Source: Aeromicrobium panaciterrae (GTDB lineage: Bacteria > Actinomycetota > Actinomycetes > Propionibacteriales > Nocardioidaceae). From it: a stretch of DNA of 64,000 nucleotides. Within the stretch, counting starts at the first letter, position 1; each line of letters begins with the position of its first letter. The stretch is from positions 1,550,001-1,614,000 of the forward strand of contig NZ_JAVDWH010000001.1 of assembly GCF_031457275.1 (NCBI RefSeq). Direction: 5' to 3'. Made by a program: the position numbers and the translations under genes. This document shows, in pieces, positions 2,555 through 47,865 of the stretch. The notes beneath the pieces were generated by a model, which had not been told where the DNA came from, searched no databases, and was given only the letters and a program-made list of their open reading frames with translations.

Positions 2555-3265
2555 GTGCTTCTCACGTCATTTCCGGCCGGTCCGCTGCAGGCGAATTGCT
2601 ATGTCGCTGCGCGTGGTCCGGGCACCAAGTGTGCGGTCGTTGACCCCGGCATGGACGCGATGGATGACCTGCGCCTCGTGATCAAGGAACTCAACGTGAC
2701 TCCGGGTGCCGTTCTGGTGACCCACGGTCACTTCGACCACATGTGGTGCGCCCAAGACGTAGCGGCCGAGTTCGACTGCCCCGTATGGATTCACCCGTCC
2801 GACCGTCACCTGTTGAGCGACCCCATGGCGGCGATCTCGGGGGAGTCGGCGGCGATGCTTCGCCAGCAACTCAACATGGGCGACCTGCCCGAATTCGCTG
2901 AGCCTGCGGACGTACGCGATGCCGTTGATGGCGCGACGATCGACATCGACGGACTCGTGTTCACGGTTGACCACGTACCGGGCCACACGCCGGGCACAGT
3001 GTTCTACCGCGTCGACTGGGACGGACCTGAAGCCATCTCACAGGTGATGTTCTCCGGTGACTTCCTGTTCCAGGGCTCGATCGGTCGTACGGACCTCGCT
3101 GGCGGATCCCACGCGCAGATGCAGGACAGCCTGCGCGACCGCGTGCTGCCACTGCCCGACGATGTCGTCGTGCTGCCGGGCCATGGTCCACAGACCTCGG
3201 TCGCGCGCGAGCGCGTCACCAACCCCTTCTTGGCTGAGCTTGCCCCGATCGATGGCACAGCATGA
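2555..3265 (+). CDS. MBL-fold metallo-hydrolase, glyoxalase II-like
   Basis: A 236-residue metallo-beta-lactamase-fold hydrolase. The zinc-binding signature THGHFDHMWC (HxHxDH) is present, followed by the ligands in DHVPGHTPGT and GDFLFQGSIGR, and by PGHGPQTSVARER near the C-terminus. This arrangement is typical of hydroxyacylglutathione-hydrolase-like (glyoxalase II) proteins. Actinobacteria use mycothiol rather than glutathione, so the true thioester substrate is unknown. The start is the GTG at 2555 (VLLTSFPAGPLQANCYV), where family homology begins and where a TANNNT element sits at leaderless spacing. The frame is open further upstream to 2471, but that part runs into the divergent promoter. 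The stop overlaps hisS by four bases (ATGA), so the two are translationally coupled. Confidence 0.9.
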   Translation: MLLTSFPAGPLQANCYVAARGPGTKCAVVDPGMDAMDDLRLVIKELNVTPGAVLVTHGHFDHMWCAQDVAAEFDCPVWIHPSDRHLLSDPMAAISGESAAMLRQQLNMGDLPEFAEPADVRDAVDGATIDIDGLVFTVDHVPGHTPGTVFYRVDWDGPEAISQVMFSGDFLFQGSIGRTDLAGGSHAQMQDSLRDRVLPLPDDVVVLPGHGPQTSVARERVTNPFLAELAPIDGTA

Positions 3266-37204: not shown

Positions 37205-37237
37205 TTGCTTCACGAGCAACCAGTATTGAACGCTCGC

Positions 37238-37366
37238 GTGCTCCGGGGTCGGTGTAATTCCGAACCGGCGGTTATAGTCCGCGACCCGCGGCCACACTTC
37301 GGTGAGGCAACGGTTGAGCCGGTGAAATTCCGGCACCGACGGTGAAAGTCCGGATGAGAGGCGCAC
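37238..37366 (+). promoter_or_regulatory. FMN riboswitch (RFN element)
   Basis: The leader of ribD contains the hallmark blocks of the FMN aptamer in order: CTCCGGGGTCGGTGTAATTC, ACCGGCGGTTATAGTCCGCG, GAGCCGGTGAAATTCCGGC and ACCGACGGTGAAAGTCCGGA followed by TGAGAGGCGCACGA. FMN binding lowers expression of riboflavin genes. The 83 bases after the aptamer hold three hairpins and no T-run, described separately. Confidence 0.95.
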
Positions 37367-37373
37367 GATGTCG

Positions 37374-42863: not shown

Positions 42864-43877
42864 TCAGCCGGTCGTATGAACCGCGCCGAGTGGCATGGAG
42901 CTCAGCGGCACTGAGATGTGCACGCTGCCATCGCGGCGTTCAATGCGTGCCATGAATCCGGCATTGCCAACAGCGCGGAGCAATTTGTCGTTCGACTCGG
43001 CAGTGATCAACGTCAGCCGATCCGCGCCATCGCCTTTGGCGTGGCTAGCGGCTCGCCTCACGAGCAGGGTCTCGAGATTTCCGCCGAGGTGGGTGTCCTG
43101 AATCAGCAGTCTGAAAGTCCAAACGCCATCGAGTTCCTCGAGCAGACCGTGACCCACGACGTCATCCCCTTGCTGAACCACCAGGGCCACGCCGTTGTCA
43201 GGTGCAACGAGGCGACGAGTCATGCGTGCCGTCATGGGGAGCTGAAGCGGAACTTGGTAGCGGTCGAACAGTGCCTTGTCGCTGCACCGATCGTGCAGAG
43301 CGACGACCGCTTCTACGTCGGCGAGGGACGCCTGCCGTACGACAGGCACCTGCGAGCTCGGCAAGGTGGTGACACGCGCGGTGGTGCCGATCGCTCCGCG
43401 CGTGAGGGCCAGGAATGCCTGCGCACGTGCCTTCTCGACGGGGGTGAACGGCCCGGCCCTACTGATGCTCAGTGCCGAACCATTGCGTCGGGCGAGTTCC
43501 AGGACATCGTGGCCTGCGTAGTCGGCCACGTCCGGTGGCTCAGTTTCGAGCAGTTCGGCGAGTACGTCGGCCACGTCTCGGCCGTCCTCAAGAACTTCGC
43601 GTACGCCCTGCAGGTAGCGGGTGGCCGAGTCGACGGTCGCCCCCTGATCGACGCGGGTGACAGACACCTGCGAACCACCGGCGCTTTCGAAGAGATGGGC
43701 GATGTCGAGGTCAGTCCATCCTTCGGGAGCGCTGACGACGAACACGTCGGTCACCCGCTTGCCCATGGCGAACACCTGCATGCCGAGGATGTTGACGCCG
43801 GCCGCACCGCAGGCCAGGGCGGTCTCGGCCAGGATTCCTGGTCGATCCACGAAAGTCGTCCGCACTCGCCACATCAT
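42864..43877 (-). CDS. ACT domain plus GNAT-like acetyltransferase fusion
   Basis: 337 residues. The N-terminus (1-75) is an ACT ligand-binding domain: RVRTTFVDRPGILAETALAC, then GVNILGMQVFAMG. A helical linker (about 85-170) follows. The C-terminal half resembles a GNAT acetyltransferase: RQASLADVEAVVALHDRCS, then NGVALVVQQGDDVVGHGLLE, and ADRLTLITAESNDKLLRAVGN in the place of the acetyl-CoA region. The classical RxxGxG/A loop is not clear, so catalytic activity is uncertain. ACT domains usually sense amino acids, suggesting regulated acetylation. Start ATG at 43877, with ATG at 43874 as alternative. Confidence 0.75.
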   Translation of the reverse strand: MMWRVRTTFVDRPGILAETALACGAAGVNILGMQVFAMGKRVTDVFVVSAPEGWTDLDIAHLFESAGGSQVSVTRVDQGATVDSATRYLQGVREVLEDGRDVADVLAELLETEPPDVADYAGHDVLELARRNGSALSISRAGPFTPVEKARAQAFLALTRGAIGTTARVTTLPSSQVPVVRQASLADVEAVVALHDRCSDKALFDRYQVPLQLPMTARMTRRLVAPDNGVALVVQQGDDVVGHGLLEELDGVWTFRLLIQDTHLGGNLETLLVRRAASHAKGDGADRLTLITAESNDKLLRAVGNAGFMARIERRDGSVHISVPLSSMPLGAVHTTG

Positions 43878-43962
43878 GTTTCCAGAGTGACTGCTGGGTC
43901 TTACCGCTCGACTTCAACCATGTTTCGTACGTGCAAACTGTTGATCGGTGCAATTCTGAGCC

Positions 43963-44364
43963 ATGAAGCGATTCCTGGTGGCAACGGCGTGTGCCGTTCT
44001 GATCGGCGTTGCGCTCGGAGCCACGGCCCGGTTGATCATGCGCCTCATCACGCTCGTCGAGGGTGATGAGCCGGAGTTCACGATCGGCGCCACGGCAGGC
44101 ATCATCAGCTTCTTTGTGCTGGCGGCGCTCGGAGGAGCGTGGGGCGGGTTGCTGACCAGCCATCGGCGCATCGGGCTCGCTATCGCCGTACTGATGACGT
44201 TCCCCGTGACGTTTCTCGGCGCGGGCATCGGGGGCGGGGATCTCGTCCAGTCGGTCGAGGATCAGTCGCCTGGTGTGTTCGCGCTCATTGTGCTCGGCAC
44301 TCTGCTGATTGCGGCGTGCGTTTTCGCCTCGCCGACACTGTCGTGGCGGAGGGCAGCCGACTGA
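43963..44364 (+). CDS. small integral membrane protein of unknown function
   Basis: 133 residues with four predicted membrane helices: about 4-27 (FLVATACAVLIGVALGATAR), 43-64 (IGATAGIISFFVLAALGGAWG), 70-91 (IGLAIAVLMTFPVTFLGAG) and 103-124 (VFALIVLGTLLIAACVFASP). The first half carries the arginine-rich ARLIMRLITLVEGDEPE. No recognised family. Divergent from the ACT-GNAT gene. Confidence 0.7.
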   Translation: MKRFLVATACAVLIGVALGATARLIMRLITLVEGDEPEFTIGATAGIISFFVLAALGGAWGGLLTSHRRIGLAIAVLMTFPVTFLGAGIGGGDLVQSVEDQSPGVFALIVLGTLLIAACVFASPTLSWRRAAD

Positions 44365-44390
44365 ATTAGGTGTCAAAACGCCTCCGCTGA

Positions 44391-44396
44391 TATCCT
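44391..44396 (+). promoter_or_regulatory. -10 element of the infC operon
   Basis: TATCCT, giving a leader of about 215 nt up to the infC start if transcription begins near 44403. No obvious -35. Confidence 0.45.
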
Positions 44397-44402
44397 TGAG
44401 GA

Positions 44403-44614
44403 CGAAGTGGAGGTCCACCTCCCACCTGCTTGGTCACAAGACCTTGGGGTTACGCCAGACAGAAGCACTCAGATCTCACGATTTGGGTCCACATGACTGG
44501 CCGACGGCGTGCTCCGATTCTGGACAGAACTTGTCTGGAGGAGCGTGCCACCGGTGGCCTTCGTTTCTTACGGGGGCCATTTTTTTTGATGGCCTCTCAC
44601 ATGATCTCAGGAGG
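44403..44614 (+). promoter_or_regulatory. infC leader RNA with attenuator
   Basis: About 210 bases between the preceding membrane protein and infC hold no separate gene. They contain several hairpins: an imperfect GTGGAGGT/ACCTCCCAC pair near 44407-44425; GGTC-ACAA-GACC near 44431-44442; TCTGGACA-GAACT-TGTCTGGA at 44519-44539; and a terminator at 44555-44587. The infC frame stays open across the leader (an in-frame ATG at 44493), but that ATG has no ribosome binding site. The region resembles the principle of the L20 leader of Firmicutes, but I cannot show homology. Confidence 0.6.
44555..44587 (+). terminator. intrinsic terminator (attenuator) upstream of infC
   Basis: TGGCCTTCG (44555-44563) pairs along all nine positions (two G-U) with CGGGGGCCA (44571-44579) around the loop TTTCTTA, followed at once by eight T residues (44580-44587). 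It lies 21 bases before the infC Shine-Dalgarno. An 8-T run after a stem is exceptional in this GC-rich sequence. Confidence 0.85.
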
Positions 44615-44618
44615 ATCC

Positions 44619-45308
44619 ATCACCACAGAGCTGCGCGTCAACGACCGAATCCGCGTTCCAGAAGTTCGCCTCGTCGGTCCTGGCGGTGAACAGGTAGGCA
44701 TCGTACGTATTGAAGATGCCCTGCGACTGGCTGCTGAAGCCGATCTCGATCTCGTTGAGGTTGCTCCGACAGCTCGTCCTCCCGTTTGCCGACTCATGGA
44801 CTACGGCAAGTTCAAGTACGAGACGGCCCAAAAGGAGCGCGAGTCCCGCCGCAATCAGACGCACACCATCATCAAAGAGATGAAGCTGCGTCCGAAGATT
44901 GATCAGCACGACTACGACACCAAAAAGGGTCACGTCGTTCGATTCCTCAAGGCTGGCGACAAGGTCAAGATCACCATCATGTTCCGCGGTCGCGAGCAGC
45001 ACCGCCCCGAGCTGGGTTACCGGCTCCTGCAGCGGCTCGCCGGCGATGTGGAGGAGCTCGGTTTCATCGAGTCCAACGCTCGCCAGGACGGTCGCAACAT
45101 GACGATGGTCCTCGGTCCGCACAAGAAGAAGTCCGAAGCCCAGGCAGAGGTCAAGGCCGAGAAGGTCAAGTCCATGGGCGAGAAGGCAGCTGAGAAGGAG
45201 GCCGACGAGGCCGCCGACAAGGCACACCGCGAAGCCGCCAAGAAGGTTGCAACACCCAAGAAGCCACGTCGTCGTTCCGAGAACCTCGACCCAGACATGG
45301 AGGCATAA
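44619..45308 (+). CDS. infC: translation initiation factor IF-3, probable AUC start
   Basis: IF-3 keeps ribosomal subunits apart and proofreads start codons. Typical N-terminal domain [20 protein letters not shown], core [19 protein letters not shown] and C-terminal domain KIKTIMFRG-type segment [18 protein letters not shown], then an unusual Lys/Ala/Glu-rich tail of about 45 residues. I place the start at the ATC 44619 ([10 protein letters not shown]). AGGAGG at 44609-44614 stands four bases before it, and the upstream in-frame ATGs at 44589 and 44601 have no ribosome binding site and would translate the Shine-Dalgarno as Gly-Gly. IF-3 genes are known for rare start codons that allow autoregulation. 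The gene call is certain; the start is not. Confidence 0.9.
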
Positions 45309-45503
45309 ATGCCGAAGTTCAAGCCCCACTCGGGGATGAAGAAGCGCGTCAAGGTGACGGGCAGCGGAAAGCTCCGTCGCGAGCAGACCAACCGTCGTCA
45401 CCTGCTCGAGGTCAAGTCGTCCTCGCGCAAGCGTCGTCTCGAAGGCACGACTGACGTCAGCAAGGCTGATGTTCCGCGCGTGAAGAAGATGCTCGGTCTC
45501 TGA
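45309..45503 (+). CDS. rpmI: 50S ribosomal protein L35
   Basis: 64 residues, strongly basic: [20 protein letters not shown], then [12 protein letters not shown]. Begins directly after the infC stop and precedes rplT, the standard infC-rpmI-rplT order. Confidence 0.97.
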
Positions 45504-45544
45504 CCGCGCCCCCCGACATTCCGAAAATCTGAAGGAGAACTGAG

Positions 45545-45937
45545 ATGGCACGCGTCAAGCGCTCTGTCAATGCACAGAAGAAGCGCCGCCAGACACTGGA
45601 GCGCGCTAAGGGTTACCGCGGTCAGCGTTCGCGGCTCTACCGCAAGGCCAAGGAGCAGGTCACACACTCCCACGTCTACAACTACCGTGACCGCAAGGCT
45701 CGCAAGGGTGACTTCCGTCGTCTGTGGATCCAGCGCATCAACGCTGCTGTCCGCGCCGAGGGTCTGACCTACAACCGCTTCATCCAGGGCATCAAGGCCG
45801 CTGGTGTCGAGGTTGACCGCAAGATCCTCGCTGACCTCGCGGTCAACGATCCGGCAGCCTTCTCGGCGCTGGTGCAGCTGGCCAAGGAGAACATTCCGGC
45901 CGACGTCAACGCACCGAAGGATGGCGCCGCGGCCTGA
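45545..45937 (+). CDS. rplT: 50S ribosomal protein L20
   Basis: 130 residues: [37 protein letters not shown] and the C-terminal globular part [20 protein letters not shown]. In several bacteria L20 binds its operon leader and represses it; here the infC attenuator would be the candidate target. AGGAGAACTG precedes the ATG. Confidence 0.97.
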
Positions 45938-45957
45938 CCGCGGTACCCCCGTACGAA

Positions 45958-46764
45958 GTGGCGAGCCTGCCTGGTGAGCTCACCGTCCGTTCAGGACGTG
46001 TGAAGTACGCCAGGCGGCTCGCCACTCGTGCGTTCCGCGAGTCCTCGGGCGAGTTTCTCGCCGAGGGACCGCAAGCCGTACGCGAGGCGCTCGACATCGA
46101 GGGCGCGACCCTCGAGGTGTTCGCGACCGTTACGGCCACTGATCAGCACGCAGAACTTCAGGCCGCTGCCGAAGCTGCAGGGATCGCCTGGAACGTCGTC
46201 ACCGACGACGTCGTCGAGGCGATCGCCGACACGGTCCAGCCGCAGGGTGTGGTGGCCCGCTGCATCGCGATAGATCGGACCCTCGACGAACTGTTGGCGA
46301 CCAAGCCGACCTTTGTCGTCGTATGCGCCGACATCCGCGACCCGGGCAATGCCGGTGCCGTGATTCGTGCTGCCGACGCTGCAGGCGCAGATGGCGTGAT
46401 CTTCGGGGGTGACAGTGTCGACCCCTACAACCCCAAGTCCGTTCGCGCGACCGTAGGCAGCTTGTTCCACCTGCCGATCGTGATCGACAAGGACCTCGGC
46501 GCGGTCATCGCGCGTCTCCAGGGCGCAGGGCTACAGGTTCTGGCGGCTGACGGCGGGGGAGGGGTCGGCCTGTTTGACCCCGAGCTCGACCTGTCCGCGC
46601 CGACAGCGTGGCTGATGGGCAACGAGGCTTGGGGACTGCCTGCAGAGCTTCAAAGTGCCGCCGACAAGGTCGTTGCCGTACCGATTTACGGCAAGGCCGA
46701 GAGCCTCAACCTCGCCACCGCTGCCGCCGTGTGCCTCTATGCCACGGCCCAAGCCCGCACCTGA
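45958..46764 (+). CDS. TrmH/SpoU-family RNA 2'-O-methyltransferase
   Basis: 268 residues. N-terminal substrate-binding domain (VRSGRVKYARRLATRAFRES, EFLAEGPQAVREAL) and a C-terminal SPOUT trefoil-knot domain with the three family motifs: DIRDPGNAGAVIRAADAAG, AWLMGNEAWGLP and YGKAESLNLATAAAVCLY. It probably methylates rRNA and sits at the position called tsnR in mycobacteria. GTG start at 45958 in the run rplT-methyltransferase-kinase-pheS. Confidence 0.9.
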   Translation: MASLPGELTVRSGRVKYARRLATRAFRESSGEFLAEGPQAVREALDIEGATLEVFATVTATDQHAELQAAAEAAGIAWNVVTDDVVEAIADTVQPQGVVARCIAIDRTLDELLATKPTFVVVCADIRDPGNAGAVIRAADAAGADGVIFGGDSVDPYNPKSVRATVGSLFHLPIVIDKDLGAVIARLQGAGLQVLAADGGGGVGLFDPELDLSAPTAWLMGNEAWGLPAELQSAADKVVAVPIYGKAESLNLATAAAVCLYATAQART

Positions 46765-46813
46765 CACGCCCGCGATCGGGCCGCCGATGTCGTACCAACT
46801 AGTTCATTGGTAC

Positions 46814-46819
46814 TAGATT
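46814..46819 (+). promoter_or_regulatory. -10 element of the histidine kinase gene
   Basis: TAGATT, eight bases before the ATG at 46828; leaderless spacing. Confidence 0.5.
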
Positions 46820-46827
46820 CACCAACC

Positions 46828-47865
46828 ATGGACCTCGACGACTTCCCGGACGGCATCATCATTGCCGGCCCCGATGGCGCCGTCGAGTACGTCAACCACC
46901 GGGTGAAAGTCATGGCCCGTGCCGAGGGTGACGAGATGATCGGCATGCATTTGCGTGAGGCCGTCCCGTTCGATGACCTCAACGGCAACTCCTGGTACGA
47001 CAGCACCGAGCCGTACGACGGCATCGCCACGCGTACTCGGATCTCCGAGCAGGCCTGGTGGTCGCCCAAGGGCAGCGAGTACCTCATCACCGCTTCGCTG
47101 AAGCGTGATCGACCGGCAGGACCTGTGCAGCAGGTCGTGGTGAGCATCCGCAACGCCCGCGTACGCAACCAGCGTGACCGCGAACGATCTGATCTCGTGG
47201 CCACCGTGGCGCATGAGCTCCGCTCGCCGCTGACTGGCATCAAAGGCTTCACGTCGACGCTCCTGACCAAATGGGACAAGTTCTCCGAAGAACAGCGCCA
47301 ATTCATGCTCGAGACCGTCGATGCTGACGCCGACCGATTGAGCAGACTCATCACAGAGCTGCTCGACGCCGCACGTATCGATGCCGGCCGACTGACGCTC
47401 AAGCGTGGTCCGGTCAAGCTCGACGAGGTCGTACGTCATGTGCTGCGCAACGTCTCCGGTGGATCGACACCGCCGTTCGAGGTCAGCATCGGCGAGAACC
47501 TCGACCTGATCTGGGGCGACAGCGATCGCATGTCCCAGGTCGTGACAAACCTGGTCGAGAACGCGCTGCGCCACGGATTCGGCCTCAAGCAGGTTTCAGT
47601 CTTGAACGCGCAGGTGTCCGGCGAGGATGGCGTGATCCTCCACATCATCGACCAGGGCCCCGGCATCCCCGAGGAGATGCGCCAGCGGGTGTTCAGCCGC
47701 TTCTGGCGTTCGGGTCCCGGCGCCGGCAGTGGCCTCGGTATGTACATCGTTCGCGGCATCGTTCTGGAGCACGGGGGACAGGTCGAGATCACCGACGCCG
47801 ACGGTGGCGGCGCTGACATCAGCGCGTGGTTCCCAATCAACGAGCCCGACGCGCTGACCGACTGA
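46828..47865 (+). CDS. orphan PAS-domain sensor histidine kinase, no membrane segment
   Basis: 345 residues. Residues 1-110 form a PAS domain (FPDGIIIAGPDGAVEYVNHR). The HisKA phosphoacceptor box is VATVAHELRSPLTGIKGF, His about residue 130. The ATP-binding domain has N-box NLVENALRHG, G1 IDQGPGIPEEMRQRVF, and G2 GSGLGMYIVRG. No signal peptide or membrane helix is seen, so it should sense a cytosolic signal. No response regulator gene is near. The position between tsnR and pheS is conserved in several actinobacteria. ATG at 46828 is preferred on promoter spacing; the frame is open to 46807. Confidence 0.88.
   Translation: MDLDDFPDGIIIAGPDGAVEYVNHRVKVMARAEGDEMIGMHLREAVPFDDLNGNSWYDSTEPYDGIATRTRISEQAWWSPKGSEYLITASLKRDRPAGPVQQVVVSIRNARVRNQRDRERSDLVATVAHELRSPLTGIKGFTSTLLTKWDKFSEEQRQFMLETVDADADRLSRLITELLDAARIDAGRLTLKRGPVKLDEVVRHVLRNVSGGSTPPFEVSIGENLDLIWGDSDRMSQVVTNLVENALRHGFGLKQVSVLNAQVSGEDGVILHIIDQGPGIPEEMRQRVFSRFWRSGPGAGSGLGMYIVRGIVLEHGGQVEITDADGGGADISAWFPINEPDALTD

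Follow-up and report, generated by a model that had tools for sequence, protein, structure and literature searches.

The infC-rpmI-rplT operon of Aeromicrobium panaciterrae is preceded by a 216-nt leader that carries an intrinsic terminator together with alternative pairings for its 5' arm, and a terminator/antiterminator switch very probably exists in this leader, as judged from predicted folds. The element is real, occurs throughout its class, and is distinct from the L20 leader of Firmicutes; one branch of it is already catalogued as a small RNA (sRNA). Its parts, their mutual exclusivity, their conservation, and their covariation are computational results that are given below. On balance, we explain the leader as a transcription attenuator of infC-rpmI-rplT controlled by a product of the operon, among which bL20 is favoured. 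The class is called Actinomycetes here after its named relatives, and papers are cited by PMC number for the parts of their text that were accessible.

Organization of the infC leader

The DNA analysed (the window) is a 64-kb stretch of a 2.8-Mb genome represented by a single contig. The features listed below are all on the forward strand.

44359-44456, + strand: match to the covariance model R1 (E=0.0042), in which P1 and P2 fit and the P0 part does not
44388-44396, + strand: putative extended -10 promoter TGATATCCT (TGnTAnnnT), present in 37/37 distinct genus leaders
44404-44419, + strand: 5' strand of the antiterminator (GAAGUGGAGG + CCACC), from the minimum-energy fold; its partner covaries class-wide
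44409-44422, + strand: P1 hairpin GGAGG-UCCA-CCUCC, the alternative to the antiterminator (anti-antiterminator), from the fold and class conservation
44424-44450, + strand: P2 hairpin (ACCU/GGGU closing, GGUC/GACC inner), from the fold and covariation in 62 relatives
44454-44549, + strand: two predicted spacer hairpins (44454-44501 and 44506-44549)
44553-44567, + strand: 3' strand of the antiterminator, overlapping the terminator 5' arm, from the fold and covariation
44554-44587, + strand: intrinsic terminator, an 11-bp hairpin (44554-44580) with a T run (44580-44587)
44589-44598, + strand: second copy of the terminator 5' arm (AUGGCCUCUC), from the full-leader fold
44609-44614, + strand: Shine-Dalgarno sequence AGGAGG of infC
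44619-45308, + strand: infC (IF-3; TIGR00168), start codon ATC
45309-45503, + strand: rpmI (bL35; TIGR00001)
45545-45937, + strand: rplT (bL20; TIGR01032)

The terminator stem pairs 44554-44564 with 44570-44580 (11 pairs, -16.9 kcal/mol; 12 pairs by pattern scan). Its run of eight T ends at 44587 and is separated by 21 bases from the AGGAGG at 44609, so that a sequence-only reading of this DNA, which had placed a terminator with eight T 21 bases before the infC ribosome binding site, was correct as to the anatomy. Of the 5 terminator-like sites that a scan of 2.7 kb returned, the terminator was the longest (12 pairs versus 6 or fewer elsewhere); the scan used a weak definition, by which 1.8 sites are expected by chance in that length. 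The whole leader had a predicted folding energy of -94.4 kcal/mol (z -4.62), and none of 200 shuffled sequences was equally stable. The Rfam scan of the window indicated no known riboswitch class in the leader; a fluoride match below threshold was obtained at 44089-44196, which is beyond the leader and on the opposite strand. Elsewhere in the window, an FMN riboswitch was detected at 37235-37369 on the forward strand (97.4 bits).

Two points were absent from the sequence-only reading, namely the ATC start codon of infC at 44619 and the TGnTAnnnT box at 44388-44396. In all 37 distinct leaders of the genus, the box begins 16-18 nt 5' of AAG, and its final base is 8-10 nt ahead of the initial A of AAGTGG. 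From the position of this box, the transcript would start at about 44402-44404; its spacing would thus place the first nucleotide of the RNA no more than a few bases from 44403 and the antiterminator strand at the extreme 5' end. The P0 helix present in most relatives is missing from the window, and in this genus the promoter seems to have shifted to the edge of the core.

Mutually exclusive pairings in the leader

The sequence-only reading had also suggested that GGTGG in the terminator arm pairs with the 5' part of the leader. Indeed, GGTGG at 44553-44557 pairs with CCACC at 44415-44419, and the pairing extends to 44404-44413 with 44558-44567, giving 15 bp with one bulge. Three pairings are mutually exclusive: P1 (44409-44413/44418-44422), the antiterminator (44404-44419/44553-44567), and the terminator (44554-44564/44570-44580). 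When the growing transcript was folded at fixed lengths, at equilibrium and not as kinetics, P1 was predicted at 44552, the antiterminator at 44562-44576, and P1 together with the terminator at 44582-44588. After 44589-44598 is made, the predicted fold returns to the antiterminator, and the terminator 3' arm pairs with the AUGGCCUCUC copy (44571-44580 with 44589-44598 in the full-leader fold). The CCUC of this copy could alternatively pair with the infC Shine-Dalgarno sequence. CCTCC or CCTCT, complementary to that sequence, lies 3' of the terminator in 33 of the 37 genus leaders and is a possible second, translational layer.

The genus set comprises 37 distinct leaders, our own included (39 before two identical ones were dropped). 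With a loose criterion for the T run, a terminator-like hairpin was found at the same place in all 37; some of them (for example L022, L024, L029, and L113) have a weak T run. P1 was predicted first in 36/37, and the antiterminator was predicted in 36/37 when only the terminator 5' arm was out; the terminator was the lowest-energy fold at the T run in 28/37 only, and the antiterminator was retained in the full leader in 18/37 only. These are raw counts without a shuffled control.

A further inverted repeat, GTGGCGAGC..GCTCGCCAC, was observed just after rplT at 45958-46032. It spans the start of an ORF for a TrmH/SpoU-type RNA methyltransferase (45958-46764), the GTG start codon of which is within the 5' arm of the repeat. 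A stem of at least 9 consecutive pairs was predicted in 30/30 genus loci (without a shuffled control), and both arms have changed together in L024 (GGCAAGCC/GGCTTGCC). If formed, this stem could occlude translation of the methyltransferase.

Distribution in the class

An even sample of the class contained 148 genomes, 147 of which had infC, and 144 upstream regions were used; outside the 144 were G260 and G320 (partial infC), G254 (no infC match), and G251 (omitted inadvertently). A sequence pattern for the 5' core was found in 114 of the 144, compared with 3 of 2880 Markov shuffles and none of the 144 reverse strands. Since 24 of the 30 misses carried a P1 of other, matching bases, a structure-defined count was adopted. 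By this count, in which pairing is required by definition, P1 flanked as in AAGNG..ACC was present upstream of infC in 138/144 class genomes versus 22/2880 shuffles; the six leaders without it were L253, L265, L284, L286, L287, and L289. No second copy was recognized in the same genome, where the exact pattern occurred, besides infC, only at two places in or beside coding sequence.

A scorable terminator was present in 105 of the 138 leaders, and the same permissive scan scored 59 of 138 shuffles. Families f66, f71, f73, and f78 were frequently without one; intrinsic termination therefore need not apply to every member, and these families may use another output. In f66, 6 of 12 leaders lacked a scorable terminator, and the core reads AAGCGGGGGTTCGCCCTCCACC in 11 loci. 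Six of these (L251, L255, L262, L263, L266, and L268) have in common CTCCGCTGCGG near the Shine-Dalgarno sequence, which could pair with AAGCGGGGGTTCGCCCTCCACC; perhaps this family has shifted to translational control.

Alignment A1, with 62 leaders from other genera and no Aeromicrobium, was the basis of the covariance model R1. The rows were derived from 238 core-bearing leaders, of which 159 fitted GACC..GGTC and 108 were dissimilar; 86 were left after awkward or over-long leaders had been dropped, and 62 were aligned. In the window, the match at 44359-44456 was the sole one up to E=10 in 64 kb. R1 matched 24 of 30 genus loci (E<=0.1) and, from the class sample, 88 of 100 short segments upstream of infC (E<=0.1); some R1 seeds are in that sample and thus match by construction. 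A covariance search over actinobacterial infC leaders had been proposed in the sequence-only reading, and its outcome was that the element is class-wide and not local: whole genomes gave one match in each of 108/148 class members (E<=0.05). These searches used strict filters with 26-29 candidates scored per genome, by which weak further copies could escape, and our own genome was below threshold in both of them, with a larger search space and stricter filters than in the search of the window. In the phylum sample, 12 of 15 genomes of the same class matched and none of the 153 others did, again with strict filters. By visual comparison of part of the 108 with the infC positions, the matches lie roughly 100-300 nt upstream of infC; the match in G294, being distant from infC, does not represent this element.

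The infC start was called as a start-like codon with a Shine-Dalgarno sequence near the conserved N terminus. It was ATC in 142 of the 144 class genomes (ATT and GTC in one each), and in the first 130 loci, own included, it was ATC in 129 and ATA in one. The apparent GTC start is that of L275 (G277), where it is preceded by AAGGAGC; GTC is a rare start codon of Streptomyces sigR in the accessible text of PMC5472188. According to the same text, infC of Streptomyces starts with ATC and is misannotated in most species. By tables judged by eye and uncounted, rplT is closely downstream of infC in nearly all genomes, so that operon linkage fails as a discriminator between L20 and IF-3. A crude pattern for rpmI, which found 70/146, was too strict for use.

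Covariation

In A1, the number of cells changed on both sides of a pair was 104, versus 47.4 (sd 6.8) in shuffles, and 86.3% of the cells were paired, compared with at most 56.2% when the partners were slid. The covariation score was 0.285 versus 0.127. Two weaker measures were closer to the shuffled values, namely the pairs with changes on both sides (9 versus 8.0, with 142 of 500 shuffles as high) and the further pair types (33 versus 29.0, 23 of 500). The signal is carried by P0 and the inner pairs of P2. The P1 stem is nearly invariant, and its outer four pairs never changed on both sides; the GACC..GGUC closing helix, which most relatives possess, is not claimed as covarying because the A1 sequences were selected by a pattern that requires this helix.

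The antiterminator was examined by permutation, with 96 distinct 5' strands from a set in which 213 of the 238 core-bearing leaders had a scorable terminator. The score of the antiterminator strand against the terminator arm of the same genome was 17.6, compared with 15.6 (sd 0.34) across genomes, a value reached in 0 of 2000 permutations. In this test and in that on A1, the relatedness of the sequences was not entirely removed. Among 105 leaders, the 5' strand had its best partner on the terminator arm in 48 (19.3 expected) and elsewhere in 57. The antiterminator scores of Streptomyces in the permutation set were among the lowest.

Proposed mechanism and alternative explanations

We infer the regulated use of the switch, its direction, and its ligand as follows. 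RNA polymerase would start at about 44403, and the first 16 or so nucleotides of the RNA would be the antiterminator strand. This nascent strand would fold at once into P1, and a small multi-helix domain would arise from P1, P2, and, in most relatives, P0. The emerging 5' arm of the terminator would then capture the 5' strand from P1, whereby no terminator would form and the operon would be read. If P1 is held closed, the terminator would form instead and transcription would stop at about 44587. P1 would be held closed by a product of the operon on the P0-P1-P2 domain, most likely free bL20 in excess over nascent 23S rRNA, in parallel to Bacillus although the RNA is another one. IF-3 would have its own additional loop through the AUC start codon, and in this genus the repeated terminator arm (44589-44598) may also expose or occlude the Shine-Dalgarno sequence.

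The chance that bL20 is the ligand appears to us about even. It is favoured on two grounds: L20 already has this role in Bacillus, and the leader contains an invariant AA dimer and two invariant G-C pairs. In A1, AA (columns 51-52) and the C-G pairs 81-130 and 82-129 do not vary, a signature that is loose and easily met by chance. Local alignment of four leader strings with 23S rRNA was no better than that of shuffles and so gave no support to sequence mimicry of 23S rRNA. AAGTGG is present in 23S rRNA, in a stretch that we take to be near the L20 site. With a loose signature and a negative comparison with 23S rRNA, bL20 stays a ligand that we infer. As to the precedents, L20 binding stabilises a terminator ahead of the same operon in Bacillus (PMC6097659, PMC10931766), and known L20 leaders have in common an AA dimer and two consecutive G-C pairs (PMC7247131), according to the accessible text of these papers.

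A fuller proposal is plausible, and we place it slightly short of probable. Taken jointly, it says that the leader may be an independently evolved, class-wide bL20-sensing RNA whose P0-P1-P2 domain mimics the L20 site of 23S rRNA; that the bound domain would lock the antiterminator strand in P1 and turn infC-rpmI-rplT off, Scr1601 of Streptomyces being the off-product; and that the terminator 3' arm of the Aeromicrobium group would gate the Shine-Dalgarno sequence, so that control, with the AUC start included, would have three layers.

It is unlikely, though by no means far-fetched, that the same switch senses through its 5' domain IF-3, bL35, another ribosomal protein, or a small molecule, in the last case as an orphan riboswitch. 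A compact, conserved multi-helix domain with invariant joining nucleotides suits a receptor for a protein or a small molecule, and infC, as the first gene, is already linked to IF-3 by its AUC start. However, operons for ribosome components are commonly self-controlled, that of Bacillus by L20 in the accessible text of PMC6097659, and a metabolite riboswitch is made less likely by the single R1 match per genome (26-29 candidates scored in each), near infC where compared.

A plain terminator or processing hairpin with a fixed low read-through and no regulated switch seems improbable. Such a hairpin would by itself account for a short transcript, the leader is GC-rich, and shuffled leaders often score terminators too, as noted above. 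However, it has no need of a covarying antiterminator partner some 135 nt upstream or of a conserved 5' domain. It is more doubtful still that the terminated leader is mainly a trans-acting sRNA and read-through into infC incidental: in Rfam the Streptomyces form is classed as an sRNA gene, but RNA-seq of S. ambofaciens put the scr1601 homolog in a UTR and not among the sRNAs (PMC8388888, accessible text), and the class-wide place before infC and the conserved antiterminator point to cis control.

The weakest explanation, attenuation by translation of a leader peptide through the terminator from the ATG at 44493 or another upstream ORF, is scarcely credible, and for this ATG it was rejected. 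In the window, the frame stays open between 44430 and infC. However, 1 of the 37 genus leaders has an ATG within two codons of 44493, and the infC frame is open to 44493 in 24 of them compared with 26 and 24 for the other two frames. Of the attenuator described in the sequence-only reading, the terminator and antiterminator of infC-rpmI-rplT are thus retained and leader translation as an input is not; the ATG is in frame with infC, as had been stated.

In the accessible texts, we found no description of how actinomycetes (Streptomyces, mycobacteria, Propionibacteriaceae, and relatives) match IF-3, L35, and L20 to ribosome number. With the switch mapped at base level, an orphan Rfam "sRNA" is accounted for, and abundant infC 5' UTRs gain a possible interpretation. 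If bL20 is the ligand, one ribosomal protein would have unrelated RNA switches in several phyla, and the leader would be a good case for how RNA mimicry of rRNA arises.

Comparison with known systems

Rfam holds a covariance model of the L20 leader. No match to it was obtained at positions 43000-47000 of the window (E<=1), in the whole window (gathering threshold), or in 36 relatives (16 at gathering, 20 at E<=1). The leader is therefore probably a separate RNA solution, and the suggestion in the sequence-only reading that it is unrelated to the Firmicutes leader agrees with these scans. In the open-access literature, subscription papers and supplements aside, no actinobacterial infC terminator/antiterminator was described in the accessible text; this includes PMC7247131, PMC11109978, PMC2864571, PMC4681348, PMC4046766, PMC3765725, PMC3848588, PMC4128351, PMC10937400, and PMC13236596.

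The Streptomyces members of the element correspond to the Rfam family RF02830 (Scr1601), whose match extends from just before GACCGG, upstream of P0, to the T run. In L047, this match is at 2702-2914 (178.7 bits), with the T run at 2909-2913 and infC at 3001. Among the 36 relatives scanned, the cut-off (100 bits) was reached only in L047 and L198 (158.9 bits); L223 (39.8 bits) and L192 (25.4 bits) were below it, and the window gave no match. Unlike the element described here, Scr1601 is filed as an sRNA gene, and the accessible part of the entry contains no attenuator reading. Expression of scr1601 in S. coelicolor was confirmed by Vockenhuber et al., according to the accessible text of PMC8388888.

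In M. tuberculosis, the infC 5' UTR described by Arnvig in 2011 (PMC3207917) is likewise long and abundant (326 nt; 2.6-fold and 4.9-fold the coding part in two growth phases) and was suggested to be regulatory. The accessible text of that paper differs from our description in giving no infC terminator/antiterminator or class-wide distribution. The likeness between the infC and infA UTRs reported there was not reproduced by R1, which gave no infA match and one match per genome (strict filters, 26-29 candidates each).

Autoregulation by IF-3 through a non-canonical start codon (ATT in E. coli, ATC in Streptomyces; PMC5472188, accessible text) resembles the ATC of the window. It differs in that it acts on infC translation and leaves the leader unexplained. 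The loose signature of the AA dimer and consecutive G-C pairs is also present in a candidate L20 leader from Deltaproteobacteria (Eckert and Weinberg 2020, PMC7247131), but according to the accessible text this candidate belongs to another phylum, has another scaffold, and is listed with the gene rpsT; the word infC is absent from the main text of that paper.

The L20 leader of Firmicutes is similar in preceding the same infC-rpmI-rplT operon, with an intrinsic terminator just before infC and a receptor domain at the 5' end. The logic is also probably the same by analogy, namely that binding favours the terminator (PMC6097659, accessible text). In contrast, the conserved sequence of the two leaders differs, and the R1 matches were confined to the actinomycete class in the samples searched.
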